From: an uncultured Coriobacteriaceae bacterium
GTDB taxonomy: Bacteria > Actinomycetota > Coriobacteriia > Coriobacteriales > Atopobiaceae
NCBI GenBank assembly: GCA_902791035.1
Contig: CADAUA010000007.1
Location: 1 to 64,000, forward strand
Reading direction: 5' to 3'
DNA length: 64,000 nt
The notes under the pieces were generated by a model. The model was not told the DNA's origin, ran no database searches, and saw only the letters and a list, made by a program, of their open reading frames with translations. The position numbers were made by a program, and so were the translations under genes. Shown in pieces: positions 440-53,697 of this stretch; positions within the stretch are counted from its first letter, which is position 1; each line of letters begins with the position of its first letter.

Positions 440-3334
440 ATGGGTGAGCAATGGGACGGCCGGTCAGGCGTACGTAATGGCGGGGGCGTAGTAGCTGCCT
501 CGTTTCCATTGACTACGTTCTTGTCTGGGGATGGAAGTGGCCTGCTGGCGGTTCTGGGCGAACCTGGAATGGGAAAGTCCGCCTTTCTTGGCAGGATCGC
601 TGACGCCGGAAGGTCCCAAGGGTTGGAGGTCTTTCAGACGGAGCTCGGCGGGATGGAGGCCGTGGAGGCAGGCGGGGCCCTAACAAGAATAGTCTCGAAC
701 GCCAACAGGGCTCGACGGACGTCTGAGGTATTGGTCTGCATAGACGATGTGCCCGCAAGCGATGAAGTATCTGGCCGGAAGATGGCCCAGGCCATAAAGA
801 AGATGCTCTCCGCGGGATGCAGGGTCGTGCTGACCATGCTGCCGGAGTGCAGGACCGTACTCGAGCTGCTCCCTGCGGTAACGGTGCTCGAGGGCTCGGA
901 TCTCCTCGTACGCGAGGGTGGAAGGGATTCGACCCCCGGTGCCATCTATGCGCTCAGAAGACTTCAGGGACTTGGGCTGGATGGCAAGGGCAAATCCCTC
1001 ATGGCACAACAGGACGCCCTGCGCTTCGTTGTTGCCGGGGCGCTTCGTGGCGGCCTGATGGACGAAGAAGAGCGAATCCGGCTGGCAATGGTTCTTCTTG
1101 GAGAAGGCGACGAGGCGCGCCTCGTGCGCGTCTTGGGTAGGTGTGATGGCGAGCTCGTGTGGGACATATCTATGGATGCGCCCTTCTTTGGCGTGGACCC
1201 TGGCTCGGGCAGGTTCCGCTGCGTGGCTCTTGAGGCGCCTTCGGACGTCGCAACGTGCTTCTCGATTCTGAGGGACGTATCCCAAGGCTACCCGGACGTC
1301 TGCGTGGCGTGCGCGAGAGAGCTTGGAGAGAGCGGGGACTATCCCCGTATGGCCATGCTGTGCGAGATGCTCGGCGATGATCCGAGGATGTTGAGGTTGG
1401 CTCAGAGGTGGGGGGCACAGCTGCTCGACCTCGGCCGCTCGGGAATGGTGCGCAGGGCCTTTGAGACCTTGGGGCAAGGGGGGTTGGGACAAGACGAGGC
1501 GAGTCTAGCCGCCGCGGTACGGGCAGTCTCCGAGCGAGGGTGCACCTCGGAATGGACGGAGCTATCGCAGGGTGTGATCTCCGGAGGGCGTGACGGGGGA
1601 GACGAGGCGTCTGGACTGCTGATCGCGGTGAGGTTTGCGCTGTCGAGGCGCGTGAGCCCACCTCAGCGCGAGAGTACGAGGATCCTGGATGCAAGGCTGG
1701 GCCTCCACCTGAAGGTCGTTGACCTGCTCCTTGCAGGTGATACCGGGACAGCGTTCGAGCTTCTTGCCGCCCGGCTTCCTGCTCCTGACAGCCAGGGAGC
1801 GTCCAACAGCCTGCTGCGTTTGGACATGGAGGCAGTGCGACTCGCAGAGGGGGAGAGACCGGTTGACCTGCCCTCGGTGATAGATGCAGCGTGCGACACG
1901 CTGCAGTCGCCCGAATACGCAGGTCTGGAGACGTACCCGCGGCTCCTGCGTGCCTGGCGTGAGGCGGTGGTGGGCGACGATGCGGGGAGCGACGTGGACA
2001 CGCTCATAACGCGAACAGAGCGTCTCCGCGAGGGGGTCGCGCATGCATGCGCCCTTCTCATCGGGACGGTTCGGGACCTGAGGGAAGGTTCGTATTCTCG
2101 TGCGACGGTTCGCGCCAGCTTCGCACGCGAGGCCTTCTGCTCCCTGGACCTCATGTACATGGGGGATGTGACCTGTATCCTCCTCATGGCCGCGCGGGCG
2201 GCGTTGGACGAGCGAGAAGGTGCCCTCTCTGAGCTGGGATGGAAGTGGTCGAACGACGATACGGCCGGCGTGGCAAAGCTCCTGGCCCGGGCCATAGACG
2301 GGAGACGCGATGCGGATTCGGCGTATCCCACGTGCCTACCTGAGGAGGCTCCTCGAGGGCTGAGGTGGCTCTTGTTGGTTCTGAGCGACTGTGACCATGC
2401 GTTTGCCTCGAGGTTGCGGTCGGGGATGCCGCGCCACTGGGGAGTCGCCATCTCGGGCATACGTGACCGCCTGGACGTGGAGCGTGGCCCCTTGCAGGAG
2501 GGCCGGGAGGACTTGTCCATGGCCGCGGCATGCCCCATGAGGGTCAGTCTCCTGGGGGACTTCTCGGTGGAGGTCCGCGGGAGGCTGGTGCCCGAGAAGG
2601 TCCTAGAGAAGCGGCGCGCGAAGTCGGTCCTGGTCTATCTGCTCCTGATGCGGTACCGCAGGGCCAAGCGCTATCAGATCGTCGACCAGGTGTTTCCGGA
2701 GTGCGACTACGAAACGGGGCGCAGGCGGGTCTACCAGGCCACGAACGTCATTCGGGATGCCACGGCGGCGGTCGTCCATGGCCTCGACCCCCTGCTGACC
2801 GTGCGAGAGGACCAGTCGCTGGCCGTGCGTCCAGAAGTGGTCTCGTGTGACGTCGACGAGTTCCTGAGCCTCGCGAGGAGGCTCGTGGATGCGGTGGACG
2901 ACGGCACGGCGGTGGCGCTCGCGCGTCGGGTGGAGGAGATCTACCAGGGCGACCTCTTCATCCCCCCAAAGGATGCGACGGGCTACGTGGCAGACATGAG
3001 GGAGCGTCTGCGTACGCTCTATGCGGACGCCATGGTGTCGGGTGCGGAGGCGGCCCTGAGGGAGGGCCAGGCGCGCACGGCCTCGAGGTTCGCCGAGAAC
3101 GCCATGCTCATAGACGAGCTGCGCGAGGACGCGGTGATCGTCCTCATACGGGCCCTCAGGGAGTGCGGGCGCACGACCGAGGCGGAGCGCCGCTACCAGC
3201 GCTATACGCGCAAGCTCGTGCAGACCTCCAGGCGTCCGCCCTCCAAGCGGGTGCGGCTTGCCGCGTTGGGTTCGGTGGGCGGGCCCATGGGACATGCGAG
3301 CCCGTCGTCGGGGCAGGGGGATGCGGGAACGTGA
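440..3334 (+). CDS. SARP/BTAD-type transcriptional regulator with N-terminal P-loop domain
   Basis: This 964-residue protein starts with a nucleotide-binding domain: Walker A GEPGMGKSA near residue 40 and a Walker-B-like LVCIDDVP near 100. A long helical middle follows with no recognisable catalytic motif. From about residue 700 it has an OmpR-like winged helix (MRVSLLGDFSVEVRGR) followed by a bacterial transcriptional activator (BTAD) domain up to about 950. The family is known for STAND-type ATPase regulators that bind DNA; the target here is unknown. ATG 440 is preferred to the in-frame TTG at 422 because AGAGGGG sits six bases upstream of the ATG. It stands alone between a terminator and secA, so control of its own promoter or of distant genes is equally possible. 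Confidence 0.8.
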   Translation: MGEQWDGRSGVRNGGGVVAASFPLTTFLSGDGSGLLAVLGEPGMGKSAFLGRIADAGRSQGLEVFQTELGGMEAVEAGGALTRIVSNANRARRTSEVLVCIDDVPASDEVSGRKMAQAIKKMLSAGCRVVLTMLPECRTVLELLPAVTVLEGSDLLVREGGRDSTPGAIYALRRLQGLGLDGKGKSLMAQQDALRFVVAGALRGGLMDEEERIRLAMVLLGEGDEARLVRVLGRCDGELVWDISMDAPFFGVDPGSGRFRCVALEAPSDVATCFSILRDVSQGYPDVCVACARELGESGDYPRMAMLCEMLGDDPRMLRLAQRWGAQLLDLGRSGMVRRAFETLGQGGLGQDEASLAAAVRAVSERGCTSEWTELSQGVISGGRDGGDEASGLLIAVRFALSRRVSPPQRESTRILDARLGLHLKVVDLLLAGDTGTAFELLAARLPAPDSQGASNSLLRLDMEAVRLAEGERPVDLPSVIDAACDTLQSPEYAGLETYPRLLRAWREAVVGDDAGSDVDTLITRTERLREGVAHACALLIGTVRDLREGSYSRATVRASFAREAFCSLDLMYMGDVTCILLMAARAALDEREGALSELGWKWSNDDTAGVAKLLARAIDGRRDADSAYPTCLPEEAPRGLRWLLLVLSDCDHAFASRLRSGMPRHWGVAISGIRDRLDVERGPLQEGREDLSMAAACPMRVSLLGDFSVEVRGRLVPEKVLEKRRAKSVLVYLLLMRYRRAKRYQIVDQVFPECDYETGRRRVYQATNVIRDATAAVVHGLDPLLTVREDQSLAVRPEVVSCDVDEFLSLARRLVDAVDDGTAVALARRVEEIYQGDLFIPPKDATGYVADMRERLRTLYADAMVSGAEAALREGQARTASRFAENAMLIDELREDAVIVLIRALRECGRTTEAERRYQRYTRKLVQTSRRPPSKRVRLAALGSVGGPMGHASPSSGQGDAGT

Positions 3335-33765: not shown

Positions 33766-33767
33766 CC

Positions 33768-33813
33768 TGTCACAGAAGCGTCTGTCACAGAAGTGTCAGT
33801 CACTTTTGTGACA
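33768..33813. repeat. Dispersed palindrome with duplicated left half, between glmM and glmS
   Basis: TGTCACAGAAGCGTC (33768-33782) is followed at once by TGTCACAGAAGTGTC (33783-33797), a central A, and the single right half GTCACTTTTGTGACA (33799-33813). The two left halves could compete for the one right half. It starts two bases after the glmM stop and ends 52 bases before glmS. Confidence 0.75.
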
Positions 33814-39243: not shown

Positions 39244-39855
39244 ATGGGTGTGATGCAGATACCGGGGCACGACCACCAGCGGCCGCGCGAGGTGACCCTG
39301 CGGGAGATCCAGGACGTGCTGGGCAACTGCCAGCGGTGCGTCCTGGGGCAGACGAGGACGCACATCGTGTTTGGCGTGGGAAACCCGAGGGCACGCGTGA
39401 TGTTCATCGGCGAGGGACCCGGGCGCAACGAGGACCTGCAGGGCGAGCCCTTCGTGGGTGCTGCGGGACACAAGCTGGACTCGCTCCTGTCGCTCGCGGG
39501 CCTCACGCGCGAGGAGATCTACATCGCGAACGTGGTCAAGTGCCGTCCGCCCGGAAACCGCAACCCCCGCCCGGAGGAGATCCAGGCCTGCTCGCCCTTC
39601 CTGCGTGAGCAGATCCGCAGTATCTGGCCCGACGTGCTAGTGTGCCTGGGCAACTTCGCCTCGCAGTTCGTGCTGCGCACGGACGCCGGGGTCACGTCGC
39701 TGCGGGGGCGCCTGCACCAGACGGGGCACTTCGTGGTGTGTCCCACCTTCCACCCGGCGGCCTGCATCTACCACCAGGAGTGGCAGCCCCTGCTGGAGAG
39801 CGACCTGCGCATGGTGGGGGAGTGGCTGCGCACCCACCCCGAGGCCGAGAAGTAG
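39244..39855 (+). CDS. Type-4 (4Fe-4S) uracil-DNA glycosylase
   Basis: The enzyme removes uracil from DNA. Four cysteines in the family pattern hold a 4Fe-4S cluster: CQRC at 29-32, then the pair in KCRPPGNR and IQACSPF sixteen residues apart. The motifs GEGPGRNEDLQGEPFVGAAG and the C-terminal TFHPAACIY are typical. ATG 39244 (203 residues) is preferred because GGAGG lies five bases before it; ATG 39190, which overlaps the alr stop, gives 221 residues and has no site. It is an extra gene within the usual alr-tsaE order. Confidence 0.92.
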   Translation: MGVMQIPGHDHQRPREVTLREIQDVLGNCQRCVLGQTRTHIVFGVGNPRARVMFIGEGPGRNEDLQGEPFVGAAGHKLDSLLSLAGLTREEIYIANVVKCRPPGNRNPRPEEIQACSPFLREQIRSIWPDVLVCLGNFASQFVLRTDAGVTSLRGRLHQTGHFVVCPTFHPAACIYHQEWQPLLESDLRMVGEWLRTHPEAEK

Positions 39856-39859
39856 CGTG

Positions 39860-39907
39860 TGTCACAGAAGTGTCGGTGTCACAGAAGTGTCAGTCACTTT
39901 TGTGACA
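39860..39907. repeat. Dispersed palindrome with duplicated left half, upstream of tsaE
   Basis: TGTCACAGAAGTGTC occurs at 39860-39874 and again, two bases later, at 39877-39891. A central A and the right half GTCACTTTTGTGACA (39893-39907) complete the palindrome. The layout matches the copy before glmS almost base for base. It ends 23 bases before tsaE. Confidence 0.75.
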
Positions 39908-39930
39908 TTGCATAATTGATGGAGGTCGAG

Positions 39931-40413
39931 ATGATCGTCACGCGGTCGGCGGACCAGACCATCGCGGTGGGGCGCCAGCTGGGCGGCCTTCTCCGTGCGG
40001 GCGATGTGCTGGTGCTCACGGGAGACCTGGGTGCCGGCAAGACCCAGCTCACCAAGGGCATAGCCCAGGGCATGGGCGTGGCCGACGACGTGACCAGCCC
40101 CACCTTTACCATCGAGATGGTCTACGAGGGCACCGAGCTCCCCCTCTACCACTTCGACCTCTACCGGCTGGACGACCCCGACCAGCTGGAGGACACGGGG
40201 CTCTTCGACGTGCTGGGCGCGGACGGCGTCTGCGTGATCGAGTGGGGCGAGCAGTTCGCGGACCAGATAGGTCCCGAGCGGCTGGATGTCTTCGTGACCC
40301 GCCTGGACGACGAGGCTGCCCCCGGCCAGGAGCCCCCGCGCCAGGTGCGCCTGGTGGCCCACGATGTGCGGGGCCAGGAGCTTGCCGCCGCGCTGGAGGC
40401 TGTGGCGGGCTAG
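39931..40413 (+). CDS. tsaE: tRNA threonylcarbamoyladenosine biosynthesis ATPase TsaE
   Basis: TsaE is the ATPase that powers turnover of the TsaB-TsaD complex making t6A37 in tRNAs that read ANN codons. The 160-residue protein has Walker A GDLGAGKTQ near 31, the SPTFTIEMVYEG segment, HFDLYRL and the conserved W in IEWGEQF. GGAGGT lies four bases before ATG 39931. In actinobacteria tsaB follows directly; here 10.8 kb of other DNA separates it from the tsaB-rimI-tsaD gene. Confidence 0.96.
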   Translation: MIVTRSADQTIAVGRQLGGLLRAGDVLVLTGDLGAGKTQLTKGIAQGMGVADDVTSPTFTIEMVYEGTELPLYHFDLYRLDDPDQLEDTGLFDVLGADGVCVIEWGEQFADQIGPERLDVFVTRLDDEAAPGQEPPRQVRLVAHDVRGQELAAALEAVAG

Positions 40414-40432: not shown

Positions 40433-40571
40433 GGTGGTCCCCCGCGGGGGACTACCTAACGTCGTTATCCCCCGGAATCCGGTCGAACCACCCGGACATC
40501 AAGGGTAGGTGGTCCCCTGAGAAGGACCACCCTCGGGTCCCGGTGGGGGTGGTCCCCCGGGGAGGACTACC
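40433..40571. repeat. 115-bp hairpin repeat, left array (array A)
   Basis: Three 24-base hairpins with arms GGTGGTCC and GGACTACC (or GGACCACC) start at 40433, 40508 and 40548. The steps of 75 and 40 bases equal those of the longer array at 50.55-51.04 kb, and the spacers (TCGTTATCCCC...GGACATCAAGGG and CTCGGGTCCCGG) match too. It begins 20 bases after tsaE. The rest of the 338-base gap up to the kinase gene holds a CCCCCGGGGG palindrome near 40611 and a likely promoter. Confidence 0.9.
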
Positions 40572-43082: not shown

Positions 43083-43186
43083 GGGCACCAGGGGGTATTC
43101 CCCTAGTGTCCGAAATCGGGCGGAGGGGAGTACCCCCTGGTGCCCGCCCCCTGGTGCCCGCCCCCTGGTGCCCGCCCCCTGGTGCC
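43083..43186. repeat. Long hairpin followed by 14-bp tandem repeats
   Basis: A 22-base arm starting GGGCACCAGGGGG (43083-43104) pairs with the arm 43124-43145 with one G-T pair; the loop contains a further CCGA/TCGG. The right arm leads into four copies of a 14-base unit (NRCCCCCTGGTGCC) at 43131, 43145, 43159 and 43173, so several copies could pair with the single left arm. It starts 14 bases after RR3. Confidence 0.85.
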
Positions 43187-47396: not shown

Positions 47397-50300
47397 ATGG
47401 CAGACAAGAACAAGCGCGACGCGCACGCCAAGGGCGCCGGCGCCAAGCCCGCCCGCAAACCGGGCGTCGTGGGCATCGTGATACGCCTGGCCGTGGCCGT
47501 GGCCTGCGTGGCCCTGATCGCGGCCGCAAACGTGATCCTGCCCGAGTACAAGCAGGTCATCGACTCCTACTTCGGCTACAAGCAGGGCTGGTCCACCGAC
47601 GGCCTCAACTCCGACGGCCTGGACCTGGAGTTCAACAAGTCCGACTACTCCCGCGAGGAGATCGGCGCCGCTGAGGAGGCGCTGGACGAGCAGATAGCCG
47701 GCGAGGGCTTCGTCCTTCTCAAGAACGAGGGCGCCCTGCCCCTGCCGCAGGGCACCACCCTCTCCTTCGTGAGCGGCAACTCCCGCTCCCTGGGCTCTGC
47801 CGGCGCGGGCGTGGTGGAGGCGGCCCTGGGCGGCTCCGGCGACACCGCAGACGCCCTGACCCCGGCCATGGAGGCCTATGGCCTCAACGTCAACTCCACC
47901 CTGCTGGACTTCTATCGCACCGGCAAGGGCAAGGACTACGTGATGGGCCCGGGCTCCGTGAGCTACGGCGACGACGAGGACTTCTCCATCAACGAGTGCC
48001 CCCTCTCCGAGCTCCAGAGCGCCGGCGTGCTGGACTCCATGCAGGGAACCACGCCCGTCTTCGTGATGAAGCGCGTGGCTGGTGAGGGTCGCGACATGCC
48101 CCGCTCCATGTACAACCACGCCGCCAGCGACGAGGACAAGGCCCGCTCCTACCTGGAGCCCGACTCCACCGAGCTGGAGATCCTCCAGTACCTCAACGAC
48201 AACTTCGACAACACCGTCCTTGTCGTGAACTCCAACGCCGCCGTGGAGCTGGATTGGCTGGCCCAGTTCCCCAACATCAAGTCCGTAATCGTGGTCCCCA
48301 GCACGGGCACCTACGGCATGAACTCCCTGGCGGGCATCCTCACGGGCGCCGTCAATCCCTCCGGCCGCACCGTCGACACCTACGTTGCCGATGCCTCGGC
48401 CAGCCCTGCCGCCCAGAACTTTGGCGACTACCAGTACCTTGACGCCTCCGGCAACATGACCAAGTACAACTACGTGAGCTACGAGGAGGGCATCTATGTG
48501 GGCTATCGCTACTACGAGACCCGCTACGAGGATGCCGTCCTGGGCCAGGGCAACGCCGGGGACTTCGACTACGACACGGCCGTGTGCTATCCCTTTGGCT
48601 ACGGCCTCTCCTACACCAGCTTCGACTGGACGGACTTCTCGACTGCCTGGTCGGGCAAGGAGTGCACGGCTACGGTGACCGTGACCAATACCGGCTCCGT
48701 TGCCGGCAAGGACGTGGTGGAGCTCTACGCCCAGAGCCCCTACACGGACTACGACCGCGCCAACGGCGTGGAGAAGCCCGCGGTGCAGCTGGTGGGCTTT
48801 GCCAAGACCAAGCTGCTGGAGCCCGGCGAGAGCCAGACTGTGAGCATCCAGTTCGACGAGCAGGCCCTGGCCGCCTATGACTCCCAGGGTGCGGGCACCT
48901 GGATCCTCGACGCCGGCACCTATTACCTCACGGCCGCCCACGACTCCCACGACGCGGCCAAGAACGTGCTTGCCGCCAAGGGCGCGGCGGTGGAGGGCAA
49001 CGCCTCCCGCGTGGCCACCTATGTGCCGACCAACGCCGACGTGGACACTACCACCTACGCTAAGGACTCCCTCACCGGCGAGAAGGTGGCCAACCGCCTG
49101 GACTCTGCCCGCGGCGACGCCACCTACCTCACCCGCGCGGACTGGACCGGCACCTTCCCCACCCACGACGGCGAGGTGACCAGCCAGGTGTCCACCTGGG
49201 GCAACGAGATCAACGGCGAGGACGGCGTGTCCTACACCTACGGCAAGGTGGCCTCCGACGAGCTTATCGCCCAGCTCGACAGCACCGACTCCGGCAACCC
49301 CGACCTCAAGAGCTGGGACGGCGAGATGGTCTACGGCGCGGACAACGGCCTCTCCATTGCCGACCTGCGCGGCGCCGACTACGACGACCCCCTGTGGGAC
49401 AAGCTGCTTGACCAGCTGACCGCCGAGGACTACGACCTGTCCATCTCGCATGCCGGCTACGGCAGCCAGTACCTGGCCTCCGTGGGCAAGCCCTTCGGCA
49501 TGGACGCGGACTCCACCTCCGGCTGGAGCTGGGGCGGCACGGGCATGAAGTACTGCAACCCCATGACAGTGGCCCAAACCTGGAACGTCGAGCTTGCCCA
49601 CCAGCTGGGCGTCATGATCGGCAACGAGTCCATCCTGGGCGGCGCCACGGGCTGGTACGCTCCCGCGACGAACATCCACCGCACCCCCTACAGCGGCCGC
49701 AACGGCGAGTACTTCTCCGAGGACGGCTTCCTGGCCGGCAGCATGGCGTCGAACGAGGTGGTGGGTGCCGCCGAGAAGGGCGTGTACACCTTCGTCAAGC
49801 ACTTCGCCTTCAACGACCAGGAGAACCACCGCGGCGACCGTACCGGCCAGTTCTCCATGGCAACGTGGCTCAACGAGCAGTCCGCCCGCGAGATCTACCT
49901 CAAGCCCTTCGAGATGTGCATGAAGGCGGGCGACGTAGAGCTGGCTTACATAAAGAAGGACGCCGACGGCAACCTCCAGAACGCCACCACCAAGGTGCGC
50001 ACCTGCCAGGGCCTCATGACCTCCTTCAACCGCATTGGCGCCACCTGGGCGGGCGGAAGCTACCCGCTCATGACTGAGCTGGTGCGCGGCGAGTGGGGCT
50101 TCGACGGCTGGATTCTCACCGACAACGCGGACACGGGCGTCTTCATGAACGGCGGCCAGATGATCGAGGCTGGGGCGGACTCCAAGCTGACCACCCAGGA
50201 CCCCACGGCCACCTGGAAGTTCGACTCCACCAACCCCACCGACTACTACTACGGACGTCAGGCCATGCACCACCTGCTCTACACCATGAGCATGTCGCAC

Positions 50301-50471
50301 GTGATGAACGGCTCCATGCCTGGCAGCCGCTACGTGAGCGGTGACGAGCAGGTGCAGACCTACGACCTCATCCACTGGGGCATCACCGGCGTGGGCGTGG
50401 CGGGACTCGCGGTCTGCGGGATCTTTGCCTGGCGCGCGCACAGCAAGCGCAAGGCCCTGGCTGGCAAGTAG
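47397..50471 (+). CDS. Membrane-anchored GH3 glycoside hydrolase, permuted domain order (GH3-4)
   Basis: The 1024-residue protein has an N-terminal membrane helix (GIVIRLAVAVACVALIAAAN) without lipobox or twin arginine and a second helix near 995-1015 followed by KRKALAGK, so both ends are anchored and the enzyme sits outside. Alpha/beta domain first (EGFVLLKNEGALPLP), FnIII-like (VTVTNTGSVAGKDVV), then the barrel from about 660 (VKHFAFNDQENH, presumed nucleophile Asp909 in ILTDNADTG). It is closest in layout to GH3-1. GGAAGG precedes ATG 47397. It lies 122 bases after GH3-3 in the same direction and ends at a strong terminator. Confidence 0.9.
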   Translation: MADKNKRDAHAKGAGAKPARKPGVVGIVIRLAVAVACVALIAAANVILPEYKQVIDSYFGYKQGWSTDGLNSDGLDLEFNKSDYSREEIGAAEEALDEQIAGEGFVLLKNEGALPLPQGTTLSFVSGNSRSLGSAGAGVVEAALGGSGDTADALTPAMEAYGLNVNSTLLDFYRTGKGKDYVMGPGSVSYGDDEDFSINECPLSELQSAGVLDSMQGTTPVFVMKRVAGEGRDMPRSMYNHAASDEDKARSYLEPDSTELEILQYLNDNFDNTVLVVNSNAAVELDWLAQFPNIKSVIVVPSTGTYGMNSLAGILTGAVNPSGRTVDTYVADASASPAAQNFGDYQYLDASGNMTKYNYVSYEEGIYVGYRYYETRYEDAVLGQGNAGDFDYDTAVCYPFGYGLSYTSFDWTDFSTAWSGKECTATVTVTNTGSVAGKDVVELYAQSPYTDYDRANGVEKPAVQLVGFAKTKLLEPGESQTVSIQFDEQALAAYDSQGAGTWILDAGTYYLTAAHDSHDAAKNVLAAKGAAVEGNASRVATYVPTNADVDTTTYAKDSLTGEKVANRLDSARGDATYLTRADWTGTFPTHDGEVTSQVSTWGNEINGEDGVSYTYGKVASDELIAQLDSTDSGNPDLKSWDGEMVYGADNGLSIADLRGADYDDPLWDKLLDQLTAEDYDLSISHAGYGSQYLASVGKPFGMDADSTSGWSWGGTGMKYCNPMTVAQTWNVELAHQLGVMIGNESILGGATGWYAPATNIHRTPYSGRNGEYFSEDGFLAGSMASNEVVGAAEKGVYTFVKHFAFNDQENHRGDRTGQFSMATWLNEQSAREIYLKPFEMCMKAGDVELAYIKKDADGNLQNATTKVRTCQGLMTSFNRIGATWAGGSYPLMTELVRGEWGFDGWILTDNADTGVFMNGGQMIEAGADSKLTTQDPTATWKFDSTNPTDYYYGRQAMHHLLYTMSMSHVMNGSMPGSRYVSGDEQVQTYDLIHWGITGVGVAGLAVCGIFAWRAHSKRKALAGK

Positions 50472-50502: not shown

Positions 50503-50535
50503 GGGGGTGGCCCTTCGGGGGCCACCCCTTGTTTT
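50503..50535 (+). terminator. Rho-independent terminator after GH3-4
   Basis: GGGGTGGCCC (50504-50513) pairs perfectly with GGGCCACCCC (50519-50528) across a TTCGG loop, followed by TTGTTTT. Confidence 0.9.
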
Positions 50536-50553: not shown

Positions 50554-51038
50554 GGTAACCCTTCGGGGAGGACTACCTAACATCGTTATCCCACGGGGTT
50601 CAGGTGGAATCCCCGGACATCAAGGGTGGGTGGTCCCCTGTGGAGGACTACCCTCGGGTCCCGGTAGTGGTAGTCCCCTAAGGAGGACTACCTAACATCG
50701 TTAGCTCCGAGAATCCGGGTGGAATCCCCAGATAACAATAGTGGGTGGTCCTGTGAGAAGGACTACCCTCGGGTCCCGGTAGTGGTGGTCCTGTGAGAAG
50801 GACTACCTATCGTCGTTATCTCCGAGAATCCGGGTGAGACCCCCGGACATCAAGGGTGGGTGGTCCCCTGTGGAGGACTACCCTCGGGTCCCGGTAGGGG
50901 TGGTCCCTTGAGAAGGACTACCTATCGTCGTTATCCCCGAGAATCCGGGTGGAATCCCCAGACATCAAGGGTGGGTGGTCCCCCGTGGAGGACTACCCTC
51001 GGGTCCCGGTAGGGGGTGATCCTGTGAGAAGGACTACC
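50554..51038. repeat. 115-bp hairpin repeat, right array (array B)
   Basis: Nine 24-base hairpins, each close to GGTGGTCC...GGACTACC, start at 50554, 50629, 50669, 50744, 50784, 50859, 50899, 50974 and 51015. Steps alternate 75 and 40 (last 41), giving a 115-base unit repeated four times. The 51-base spacer (TCGTTATCCCCGAGAATCCGGG...) contains a further TCCGGG/CCCGGA stem, and the 16-base spacer reads CTCGGGTCCCGGTAG. Spacers are conserved between units, so this is not a CRISPR array. No coding potential; same orientation as array A. Confidence 0.95.
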
Positions 51039-51113
51039 TATCGTCGTTACATTTCCCGACCATGACGGTCCTGTCTTCTGGTACTGGCCCGGGTCACGTC
51101 TCCCTCCAAGCGC

Positions 51114-51186: not shown

Positions 51187-53697
51187 ATGGCCCAGAGCCA
51201 GACGGCGGCGGTTTGCGCCACCACCCCCCGGATCGTCCTTGCCCTCGACACCTCCACCGACATGCTGGCCTGCGCCGTCGGGCGCGTGAGCCCGGATGCC
51301 CAGAAGCCCGTCGAGCTTCTCGCCACGCGCGACCACATGTGCCGGCGCCGCGCCAACGTCGAGCTTGTGGGTACCTGCAAGGAGGCGCTGGCGGACGCCG
51401 ACCTGACCATGGCCGACGTGGACCAGGTGCTGGTGGGCCGCGGTCCCGGCTCCTTTACGGGCGTGCGCATAGGCGTGGCCACGGCCAAGGGCCTCTCCTG
51501 CGGGCTGGCCCGCCCCCTCTACGGCGTGTCGGCCCTCGATGCGACGGCCTGGGAGGCCTGGGTGGCTGGCGTGCGCGGGCTTCTCGCGGTGGCCATGGAC
51601 GCCATGCGGGGCGAGGTCTATCCCGGAATCTATGAGCTGACGGACGCGGGCGCGCGTCGCACCTTCGAGTCCGAGACCGTGACAAAGACCGATGCCTGCG
51701 TGGAGGCGTGGTCCGCGCGTGCGGACAAGGACGACCTCCTCCTCACGGGCAACGGGCTGGTAAAGTACCGGACGCGCTTCGAGGCCGCGGGTTTTGCACG
51801 CTACGTGGACGAGGGCCTGTGGTATCCCAGCGGTCAGGGGCTCCTGCTCGCGTTTGCGCAGGTGTCTGGTGCCGTGACGGATGGCCGTGCGGACGACCCG
51901 GCTCTCTCTGGCGACCCCGCCCTGGTCCTTCCCATCTACACGCGCCTTTCGGACGCCGAGGAGAACGAGCGCAAACGGCTGGGACTCGCGCAGCCGGCCA
52001 GCGTGGAGGTCACGGGCGTGGACGACGCCCTGGCCGACCGTCACCTGCAGCTCCGTCCCATGAGCGTGAACGACCTGGACGCGGTGGCAGCGCTGGAGGC
52101 CGCGGCCTACGAGGGCTCGGCGCATACCCCCTGGAGCAGGAACGCCTTCTATGAGGAGCTCAGCCAGCCGGGCCGCAGCTGGTGGGTGGCTCACGATATG
52201 GGCCAGATCGTGGGCTTCTCGGGCGGTCTGCTTGCGGGTGGCGACTTCGAGATCGAGGAGGTCGTGGTCACGGAGGCGCGCAGACGCCAGGGGATCGGCG
52301 CCCGGCTGGTCACCCGAGTGGCCTACGATGGCCAGACCTTCGGTGCCCAGACGGCGTCGCTCGAGGTCGACGAGGGCAACGCGCCGGCTCGCGCCCTCTA
52401 CGAGCGGCTGGGCTTCGCGCAGGAGGGACGGCGGCCGTCCTACTACGGACGCGGGCACGACGCCCTTATCCTCCGGGCCCGCCTGCCCCTGGTGGCGGAC
52501 GTGGAGGCTGTGGGCGCGCGCCCCGAGCCTGCGGCGTCCATACGTCCTTGGCCCATCGTGCCGGGGGAGAGAAGCGCGGAGGTCAAGGCGGCTCTTGCGG
52601 CCGCGGGCGACCTGATCCTGGCAATCGAGTCCTCCTGCGACGAGACGGCCATGGCTGTGATCGACTCGCACGGCGCGGTGTGCTCGTCCGTGGTGGCCAC
52701 GAGCATCGACTTCCACGCACGCTTTGGCGGCGTGGTGCCCGAGATCGCCTCCCGCAAGCACGTGGAGGCCATCGTGGGTGTGTACGAGGAGGCCATGGCC
52801 AAGGCCGGCGAGCACTTTGGGTGCGATACCCTGGCCCCTGCCGACCTCGCGGCCGTGGGCGTCACGGCCGGTCCCGGCCTTGTGGGCGCCCTTGTGGTGG
52901 GCGTGGCCTTTGCCAAGGGGCTCTGCGCCTCCTGCGACCTGCCGCTCGTGCCGGTACACCACTTGGAGGGCCACCTCATGGCCAACCTCTTCGAGACGCC
53001 GGACCTCACGCCGCCCTTCGTGGCAAGCCTCGTCTCCGGCGGCAACACCATGCTCGCGCTCGTGCGCGACTGGGGCGACTACCAGGTGCTGGGGACTACC
53101 ATCGACGATGCGGTGGGCGAGGCCTTCGACAAGGTGGCCAAGGCCCTAGGGCTGGGGTATCCCGGTGGTCCCGTCATCAGCCGGCTGGCGGCCAAGGGCA
53201 ACCCCAAGGCCATCCACTTCCCCCGTGCCATGATGCACAGCGGCGACTATTCCTTCTCGCTCTCTGGCCTCAAGACGGCCGTGATCACCTATATAGAGGG
53301 CGAGAACCGCGCGGGCAGGCCCATCAACCTGCCGGACTTGGCGGCGAGCTTCGAGGCGGCGGTCATAGACGTGCAGGTGGCCAAGGCTGCGCGCGCTGTG
53401 GAGGAGTGCGGGGTGGACGACTTCTGCGTGGGGGGCGGTGTGGCGGCAAACCCGCAGCTTCGCGAAGCCTACCGCAAGGAGTTCGGCCGCAGGGGGGTGC
53501 GTGTGACGGTGCCACCCATGGCGGTGTGTGGCGACAACGCGGCCATGATCGGCGTGGTGGCCCTGCGGAGCTTCCGGGCGGGGCTGGTGAGCGACCTCAC
53601 GCTGGACGCGGCGCCCAACGCACCACTTGGCACCTGGGCCTGCCCGGGCACGCCTGTGGTGTCTGGCGACTGGCCGGCCAAGCGCGGCAACAGGTAG
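51187..53697 (+). CDS. TsaB-RimI-TsaD triple fusion (t6A synthesis and ribosomal protein acetylation)
   Basis: One 836-residue frame holds three proteins that are usually separate. Residues 1-255 are TsaB (IVLALDTSTDMLACAVG, GRGPGSFTGVRIGVATAKGL). Residues about 278-440 are a GNAT acetyltransferase like RimI (LRPMSVNDLDAVAALE, EARRRQGIGARLV, NAPARALYERLGF). Residues from about 473 are TsaD (ILAIESSCDETAMAVID, metal-binding HHLEGH near 592, GGVAANPQLREAY). TsaB and TsaD together transfer threonylcarbamoyl to tRNA A37, so the fusion fixes their ratio. All key motifs look intact and no internal stop or shift is seen. No strong ribosome binding site precedes ATG 51187. Confidence 0.93.
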   Translation: MAQSQTAAVCATTPRIVLALDTSTDMLACAVGRVSPDAQKPVELLATRDHMCRRRANVELVGTCKEALADADLTMADVDQVLVGRGPGSFTGVRIGVATAKGLSCGLARPLYGVSALDATAWEAWVAGVRGLLAVAMDAMRGEVYPGIYELTDAGARRTFESETVTKTDACVEAWSARADKDDLLLTGNGLVKYRTRFEAAGFARYVDEGLWYPSGQGLLLAFAQVSGAVTDGRADDPALSGDPALVLPIYTRLSDAEENERKRLGLAQPASVEVTGVDDALADRHLQLRPMSVNDLDAVAALEAAAYEGSAHTPWSRNAFYEELSQPGRSWWVAHDMGQIVGFSGGLLAGGDFEIEEVVVTEARRRQGIGARLVTRVAYDGQTFGAQTASLEVDEGNAPARALYERLGFAQEGRRPSYYGRGHDALILRARLPLVADVEAVGARPEPAASIRPWPIVPGERSAEVKAALAAAGDLILAIESSCDETAMAVIDSHGAVCSSVVATSIDFHARFGGVVPEIASRKHVEAIVGVYEEAMAKAGEHFGCDTLAPADLAAVGVTAGPGLVGALVVGVAFAKGLCASCDLPLVPVHHLEGHLMANLFETPDLTPPFVASLVSGGNTMLALVRDWGDYQVLGTTIDDAVGEAFDKVAKALGLGYPGGPVISRLAAKGNPKAIHFPRAMMHSGDYSFSLSGLKTAVITYIEGENRAGRPINLPDLAASFEAAVIDVQVAKAARAVEECGVDDFCVGGGVAANPQLREAYRKEFGRRGVRVTVPPMAVCGDNAAMIGVVALRSFRAGLVSDLTLDAAPNAPLGTWACPGTPVVSGDWPAKRGNR

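Follow-up and report, generated by a model that had tools for sequence, protein, structure and literature searches.

The window analysed here (the whole 64,000-nt stretch from an uncultured Coriobacteriaceae bacterium) carries at positions 50554–51038 a regular succession of nine palindromes, which raises the question of whether these are parts of a structured RNA, sites read on the DNA by a protein, or a selfish repeat of no use to the cell. The first-pass annotation of this region had described nine hairpins at alternating steps of 75 and 40 bp, and this layout stood with one exception: the nine palindromes, each of 24 nt, are separated in turn by spacers of 51 and 16 nt, the final short spacer being 17 nt, so that a step of 41 bp occurs once, at the end of the array (Table 1). 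Using Tandem Repeats Finder, the array was called with a period of 115, 4.2 copies, 86% matches and a score of 692. This score is far above that of any other tandem repeat in the window, and the array is therefore not considered to be a product of chance. It was also possible to agree that the region lacks a coding frame, no plausible one being found there. At the right foot of the palindromes GTAG is present in all nine, and at the left foot GTGG in most. The end of the array is separated from the next start codon by a gap of ~140 bp.

Table 1. Coordinates of the main array, of neighbouring features in the window and of the RAYT-like genes of the genome.
Feature	Position	Strand	Remark
Second family array in window, H1-51-H2-16-H1	40433..40571	+	19 bp past tsaE stop codon
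GH3 beta-glucosidase-like gene	47397..50471	+	Upstream of main array
Intrinsic-terminator-like hairpin and T-run of the upstream GH3 gene	50503..50535	+	Main array lies beyond terminator
Palindrome 1 (H1)	50554..50577	+	GGTAACCCTTCGGGGAGGACTACC; left half degenerate: GGTAACCCTTCGGGG
Long spacer, 51 nt	50578..50628	+	Edges TAACATCGTTATC and ACATCAAGGGTG
Palindrome 2 (H2)	50629..50652	+	
Short spacer, 16 nt	50653..50668	+	CTCGGGTCCCGGTAGT
Palindrome 3 (H1)	50669..50692	+	
Long spacer, 51 nt	50693..50743	+	
Palindrome 4 (H2)	50744..50767	+	
Palindrome 5 (H1)	50784..50807	+	
Long spacer, 51 nt	50808..50858	+	Sole main-array spacer with complete TCCGGG/CCCGGA
Palindrome 6 (H2)	50859..50882	+	
Palindrome 7 (H1)	50899..50922	+	
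Long spacer, 51 nt	50923..50973	+	
Palindrome 8 (H2)	50974..50997	+	
Palindrome 9 (H1)	51015..51038	+	Followed by truncated edge TATCGTCGTTA, ending at 51049
tsaB-rimI-tsaD fusion gene	51187..53697	+	Downstream of main array
RAYT-like genes L041–L045	G000 C31:5525, C23:20896, C17:32611, C4:86083, C1:438491		

A lack of further copies had been named in the first-pass annotation as a ground for rejecting it, but a genome-wide search located such copies. In the 2.69-Mb genome there are approximately ten arrays, a count obtained by searching with DNA sequence and with a covariance model of the palindrome-16-palindrome arrangement, and they are spread over five contigs (C5:192.1k; C6:116.6k, 123.5k, 125.1k, 131.0k and 184.0k; C7:40.4k and 50.5k; C8:84.1–85.0k; C15:44.5–44.9k). 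All of those found are intergenic, with the biggest having 14 sites across ~0.9 kb, and together the family arrays yielded a catalogue of 67 palindromes. The unit of the family consists of H1 (24 nt), a long spacer, H2 (24 nt) and a short spacer (15–17 nt), with a palindrome consensus of GGTRGNCC-N8-GGNCYACC in which GT(A/G)G occurs at both feet in 55 of the 67. The spacer edges are conserved as well, and in the class with 51-nt spacers they are TAWCNNYGTTAT after H1 and ACATCAARRGTG before H2. A genome pattern search gave 70 matches, ~50 of them inside arrays, against 20 for a reversed-pattern control; in this search the matches outside arrays equal the control background, with no excess of copies there. 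Contig C6 makes up 7.5% of the genome yet holds five of the ten arrays (binomial ~4e-4 against random scatter), and this clustering suggests that the family spread locally.

The two-palindrome pattern is absent from 139 other genomes of the bacterial family, and searches of plasmids and phages gave no match to the repeat. The single covariance-model match among the relatives (G035) was rejected, as it lies inside apparently coding, transporter-like sequence. Matches to an exact two-palindrome pattern elsewhere, in 60 genome-contig and seven viral-contig stretches, are scattered with one per contig and were read as chance. The Planctomycetota assembly VGZJ01 (L074–L133) has several two-palindrome matches near contig ends, perhaps belonging to another repeat family.

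Comparison of the arrays with each other gave identities between arrays of 0.67–0.75 for the palindromes and 0.45 for the middle of the spacer (shuffled 0.28). For long spacers, gapped identity over the five multi-unit 51-nt arrays is 0.57–0.82 within an array and 0.50–0.64 between arrays (shuffled 0.49), and the arrays with longer spacers show 0.33–0.55 to the 51-nt class. These identities of palindromes and spacers indicate that each array has been homogenised and that the palindrome has been kept across arrays. The long spacer of the array at 40433–40571 has 80% identity to those of the main array, which places the two arrays of the window above the 0.50–0.64 of the other pairs.

The first-pass annotation had implied a structured RNA, with a TCCGGG/CCCGGA stem of its own in the 51-nt spacer. 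Neither part of this found support: only one of the four units has the stem in full, and the long spacers (n = 12) fold like shuffled sequences (z −1.8 to +1.6). The arms of the palindrome were tested for compensatory changes and none were found, an outcome that the first-pass annotation had itself named as counting against its reading, with all five measures of covariation in 28 two-palindrome sequences falling within or near the shuffle range. Across the 67 palindromes, T-A pairs occur 30 times at position 6, where 29.5 are expected under independence, and A-A and T-T mismatches occur there 21 times. Variation at position 4 is between purines on one strand and between pyrimidines on the other; this preserves GT(A/G)G at both feet and is not explained by pairing. 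The strand of the arrays with respect to their flanking genes is mixed. Taken together, the lack of covariation, the pattern at position 4, the unstructured spacers and the mixed strand favour a motif that would be read at the DNA level, and we favour a palindrome conserved as a putative sequence motif over one conserved for its structure in RNA.

The distances between palindrome centres fall into classes of 39–41, 52–53, 74–76, 85, 95–96, 107 and 116–117 bp. Measured from 75 bp, the long classes lie at 0, 0.95, 1.95, 3.05 and 3.95 turns of 10.5 bp (P = 0.0005 with the period fixed at 10.5; P = 0.0025 with the period free over 10.2–11.2). When the palindrome centres of the ten arrays were scanned over periods of 8–16 bp, the mean resultant peaked at 10.50 bp (0.79), and with shared class offsets randomised P was 0.0007 for a fixed 10.5 bp and 0.18 for any period of 8–16 bp, all of these values applying to a phasing that was noticed post hoc and to approximately seven independent spacing classes. 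Helical phasing of the palindromes is likely, short of proof. A search of open-access papers found no report of 10.5-bp phasing in REPs.

The reading that we prefer, at a probability of roughly 0.6, is that of a genome-private family of REP/BIME-like arrays, with palindromes acting at the DNA level, near-whole-turn spacing and a putative role as a cooperative platform. A protein would read the palindrome at the DNA level, either as duplex or as an extruded or single-stranded hairpin; tandem duplication would make the arrays grow, spread would be mostly to nearby sites, and spacing would be held near whole helical turns. Near-whole-turn spacing would place neighbouring sites on the same side of the helix, which is what a cooperative binding platform would be expected to show. 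The leading candidate for the spread would be a RAYT-type HUH enzyme that has been lost or that works in trans. That the arrays are dedicated DNA platforms, with spacers selected in turns of 10.5 bp and a putative protein assembling along the array, is a tentative proposal; if true, it would concern a lineage in which no such element has been described before.

It may instead be that the arrays are selfish or relic REP/BIME sequences of a REPIN-like kind which have lost their transposase, with slippage and gene conversion maintaining them, no cellular function, and a regularity of spacing inherited from the founding unit. The family is private to one genome, intergenic only and homogenised within arrays, all of which would suit such an origin, and the presence in this genome of five different RAYT-like Y1_Tnp genes, each with palindromic repeats of its own at the ends, shows that it hosts such systems. 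We nevertheless regard this origin as unlikely, given that palindromes are conserved between arrays though the spacers have diverged to near random, that long-spacer lengths are separated by close to whole turns of the helix and that copies are no commoner than background outside the arrays. The GGTRGNCC palindrome was not found at the flanks of the five Y1_Tnp genes; other repeats are present there, and for this reason each of the five was rejected as the mover of the arrays. A cognate RAYT may sit in an assembly gap or be already lost.

Several other repeats were observed in the same genome. Those of the TGTCACAGAAGTG type at window positions 33767–33803 and 39848–39891 match the terminal repeats of the RAYT-like gene on C17 (L043). 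Upstream of the first GH3 gene, at 43133–43186 of the window, is a perfect 14-bp tandem repeat of CCCCCTGGTGCCCG in 3.9 copies. On contig C6 a gene resembling REase_MTES_1575, below the Pfam cut-off (C6:123887–125011; L031), is located between two minus-strand family arrays, and a ~20-bp tandem repeat (CTCGTTCTCTTTGTCCCA) adjoins array C6b (L031 570–700).

A transcribed array, with hairpins serving as sRNA precursor, mRNA stabiliser or terminator, is an improbable explanation. The whole main array does fold very stably, with z of −3.7 and −2.9 for the two strands, arrays are placed beyond genes, and a C15 intergenic copy resembles an intrinsic terminator, as does the hairpin that follows the GH3 gene. 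However, in addition to the missing arm covariation and the unstructured spacers, the orientation of the arrays relative to flanking genes varies, the main array lies beyond the GH3 terminator, and no intrinsic terminator was found inside it and no sigma-70-like promoter in its region. No Rfam match exceeded any family's threshold. The case teaches that palindromes without covariation should not be classed as RNA structures. An array of operators through which an ordinary regulator controls the genes nearby is highly improbable, for although a dyad site recurs in fixed phase immediately before the tsaB promoter region, neighbouring genes are unrelated from array to array, several arrays lie downstream of genes and the biggest runs to 14 sites over ~0.9 kb.

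The genes around the two arrays of the window were also compared with those of relatives. Judged by its gene content and by the tsaB-rimI-tsaD fusion, the genome is probably that of a member of the Coriobacteriia. Here tsaE (39916–40413) and tsaBD (51187–53697) are 10.8 kb apart; in 17 of 24 relatives they are neighbours, with tsaE just upstream of tsaB. This adjacency, together with the 80% spacer identity that makes the window arrays sisters, had suggested an array split by cargo. The arrays were rejected as cause of the 10-kb insertion, as the gene block is present in array-free relatives: in G089, G097, G090 and G112 (genus label g33) tsaBD is directly preceded by the same kinase-LytTR-GH3-GH3 block, and in G084 tsaE and tsaBD have a GH3 remnant between them. 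Because all five are without the repeat, the gene block is older than the arrays. No array was found in the GH3-tsaB gap of G090 and G097 or in the prsA-DUF523 gap of G056 and G084, which are empty sites. In the relative G036, the prsA-DUF523 gap (L187 ~2440–2560, reverse strand) has a different palindromic repeat, of the TATCGCACGATAC type.

Most known BIME-like arrays are from Proteobacteria, and what they do is disputed. A search of the open-access literature found no description of the present repeat family. The first-pass annotation had excluded any resemblance to REP/BIME, and this exclusion has to be withdrawn, REP/BIME being the closest known kind. With the BIME-2 and REP sequences of E. 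coli and relatives the arrays share short extragenic palindromes, tandem units and two alternating spacer types (PMC2817692, PMC8266576, PMC3733652), as well as the GT(A/G)G motif, reported as the head motif of REPs (PMC2817692), and several repeat families per genome. At 24 nt and with all arrays intergenic, the palindromes fall within the 20–50 nt of extragenic REP palindromes. DNA gyrase binding has been reported for BIME-2 (PMC2817692, PMC8266576). Differences are also evident. In REP/BIME the GTRG is an unpaired 5' tag at one foot, whereas here it is paired within the stem at both feet (55/67), and an unpaired GTRG at most 5 nt upstream of the palindrome was found for only 6 of 67. The alternating palindrome orientation of REP/BIME is not seen in the main array, a weak test given the near-symmetry of the palindromes; dispersed single or paired copies give way here to arrays alone; no cognate RAYT is flanked by the same repeat; and the apparent 10.5-bp phasing sets the arrays apart. 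Since unpaired GTAG, alternating orientation and a RAYT with the repeat are all missing, a canonical REP origin is unproved.

Other known systems show partial likenesses. As in TIRYTs (Di Nocera 2013, PMC3733652), this genome has Y1_Tnp genes with their own palindromic terminal repeats, but the terminal repeats of its RAYT-like genes are never the GGTRGNCC palindrome. REPINs likewise have two palindromes around a spacer replicating as a unit, in contrast to copies confined here to arrays and to a single genome. With CRISPR the arrays have in common regular repeats and spacers of constant length, and differ from it in palindromic repeats at two alternating spacings and in near-identical spacers within an array; the homogenised spacers uphold the original statement that this is not a CRISPR. 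A private, array-confined family with spacers that diverge in sequence but apparently stay on a helical grid makes it possible to test from sequence whether such arrays are binding platforms or only selfish repeats. On present evidence the family works like BIME, yet it is not classed as a member.
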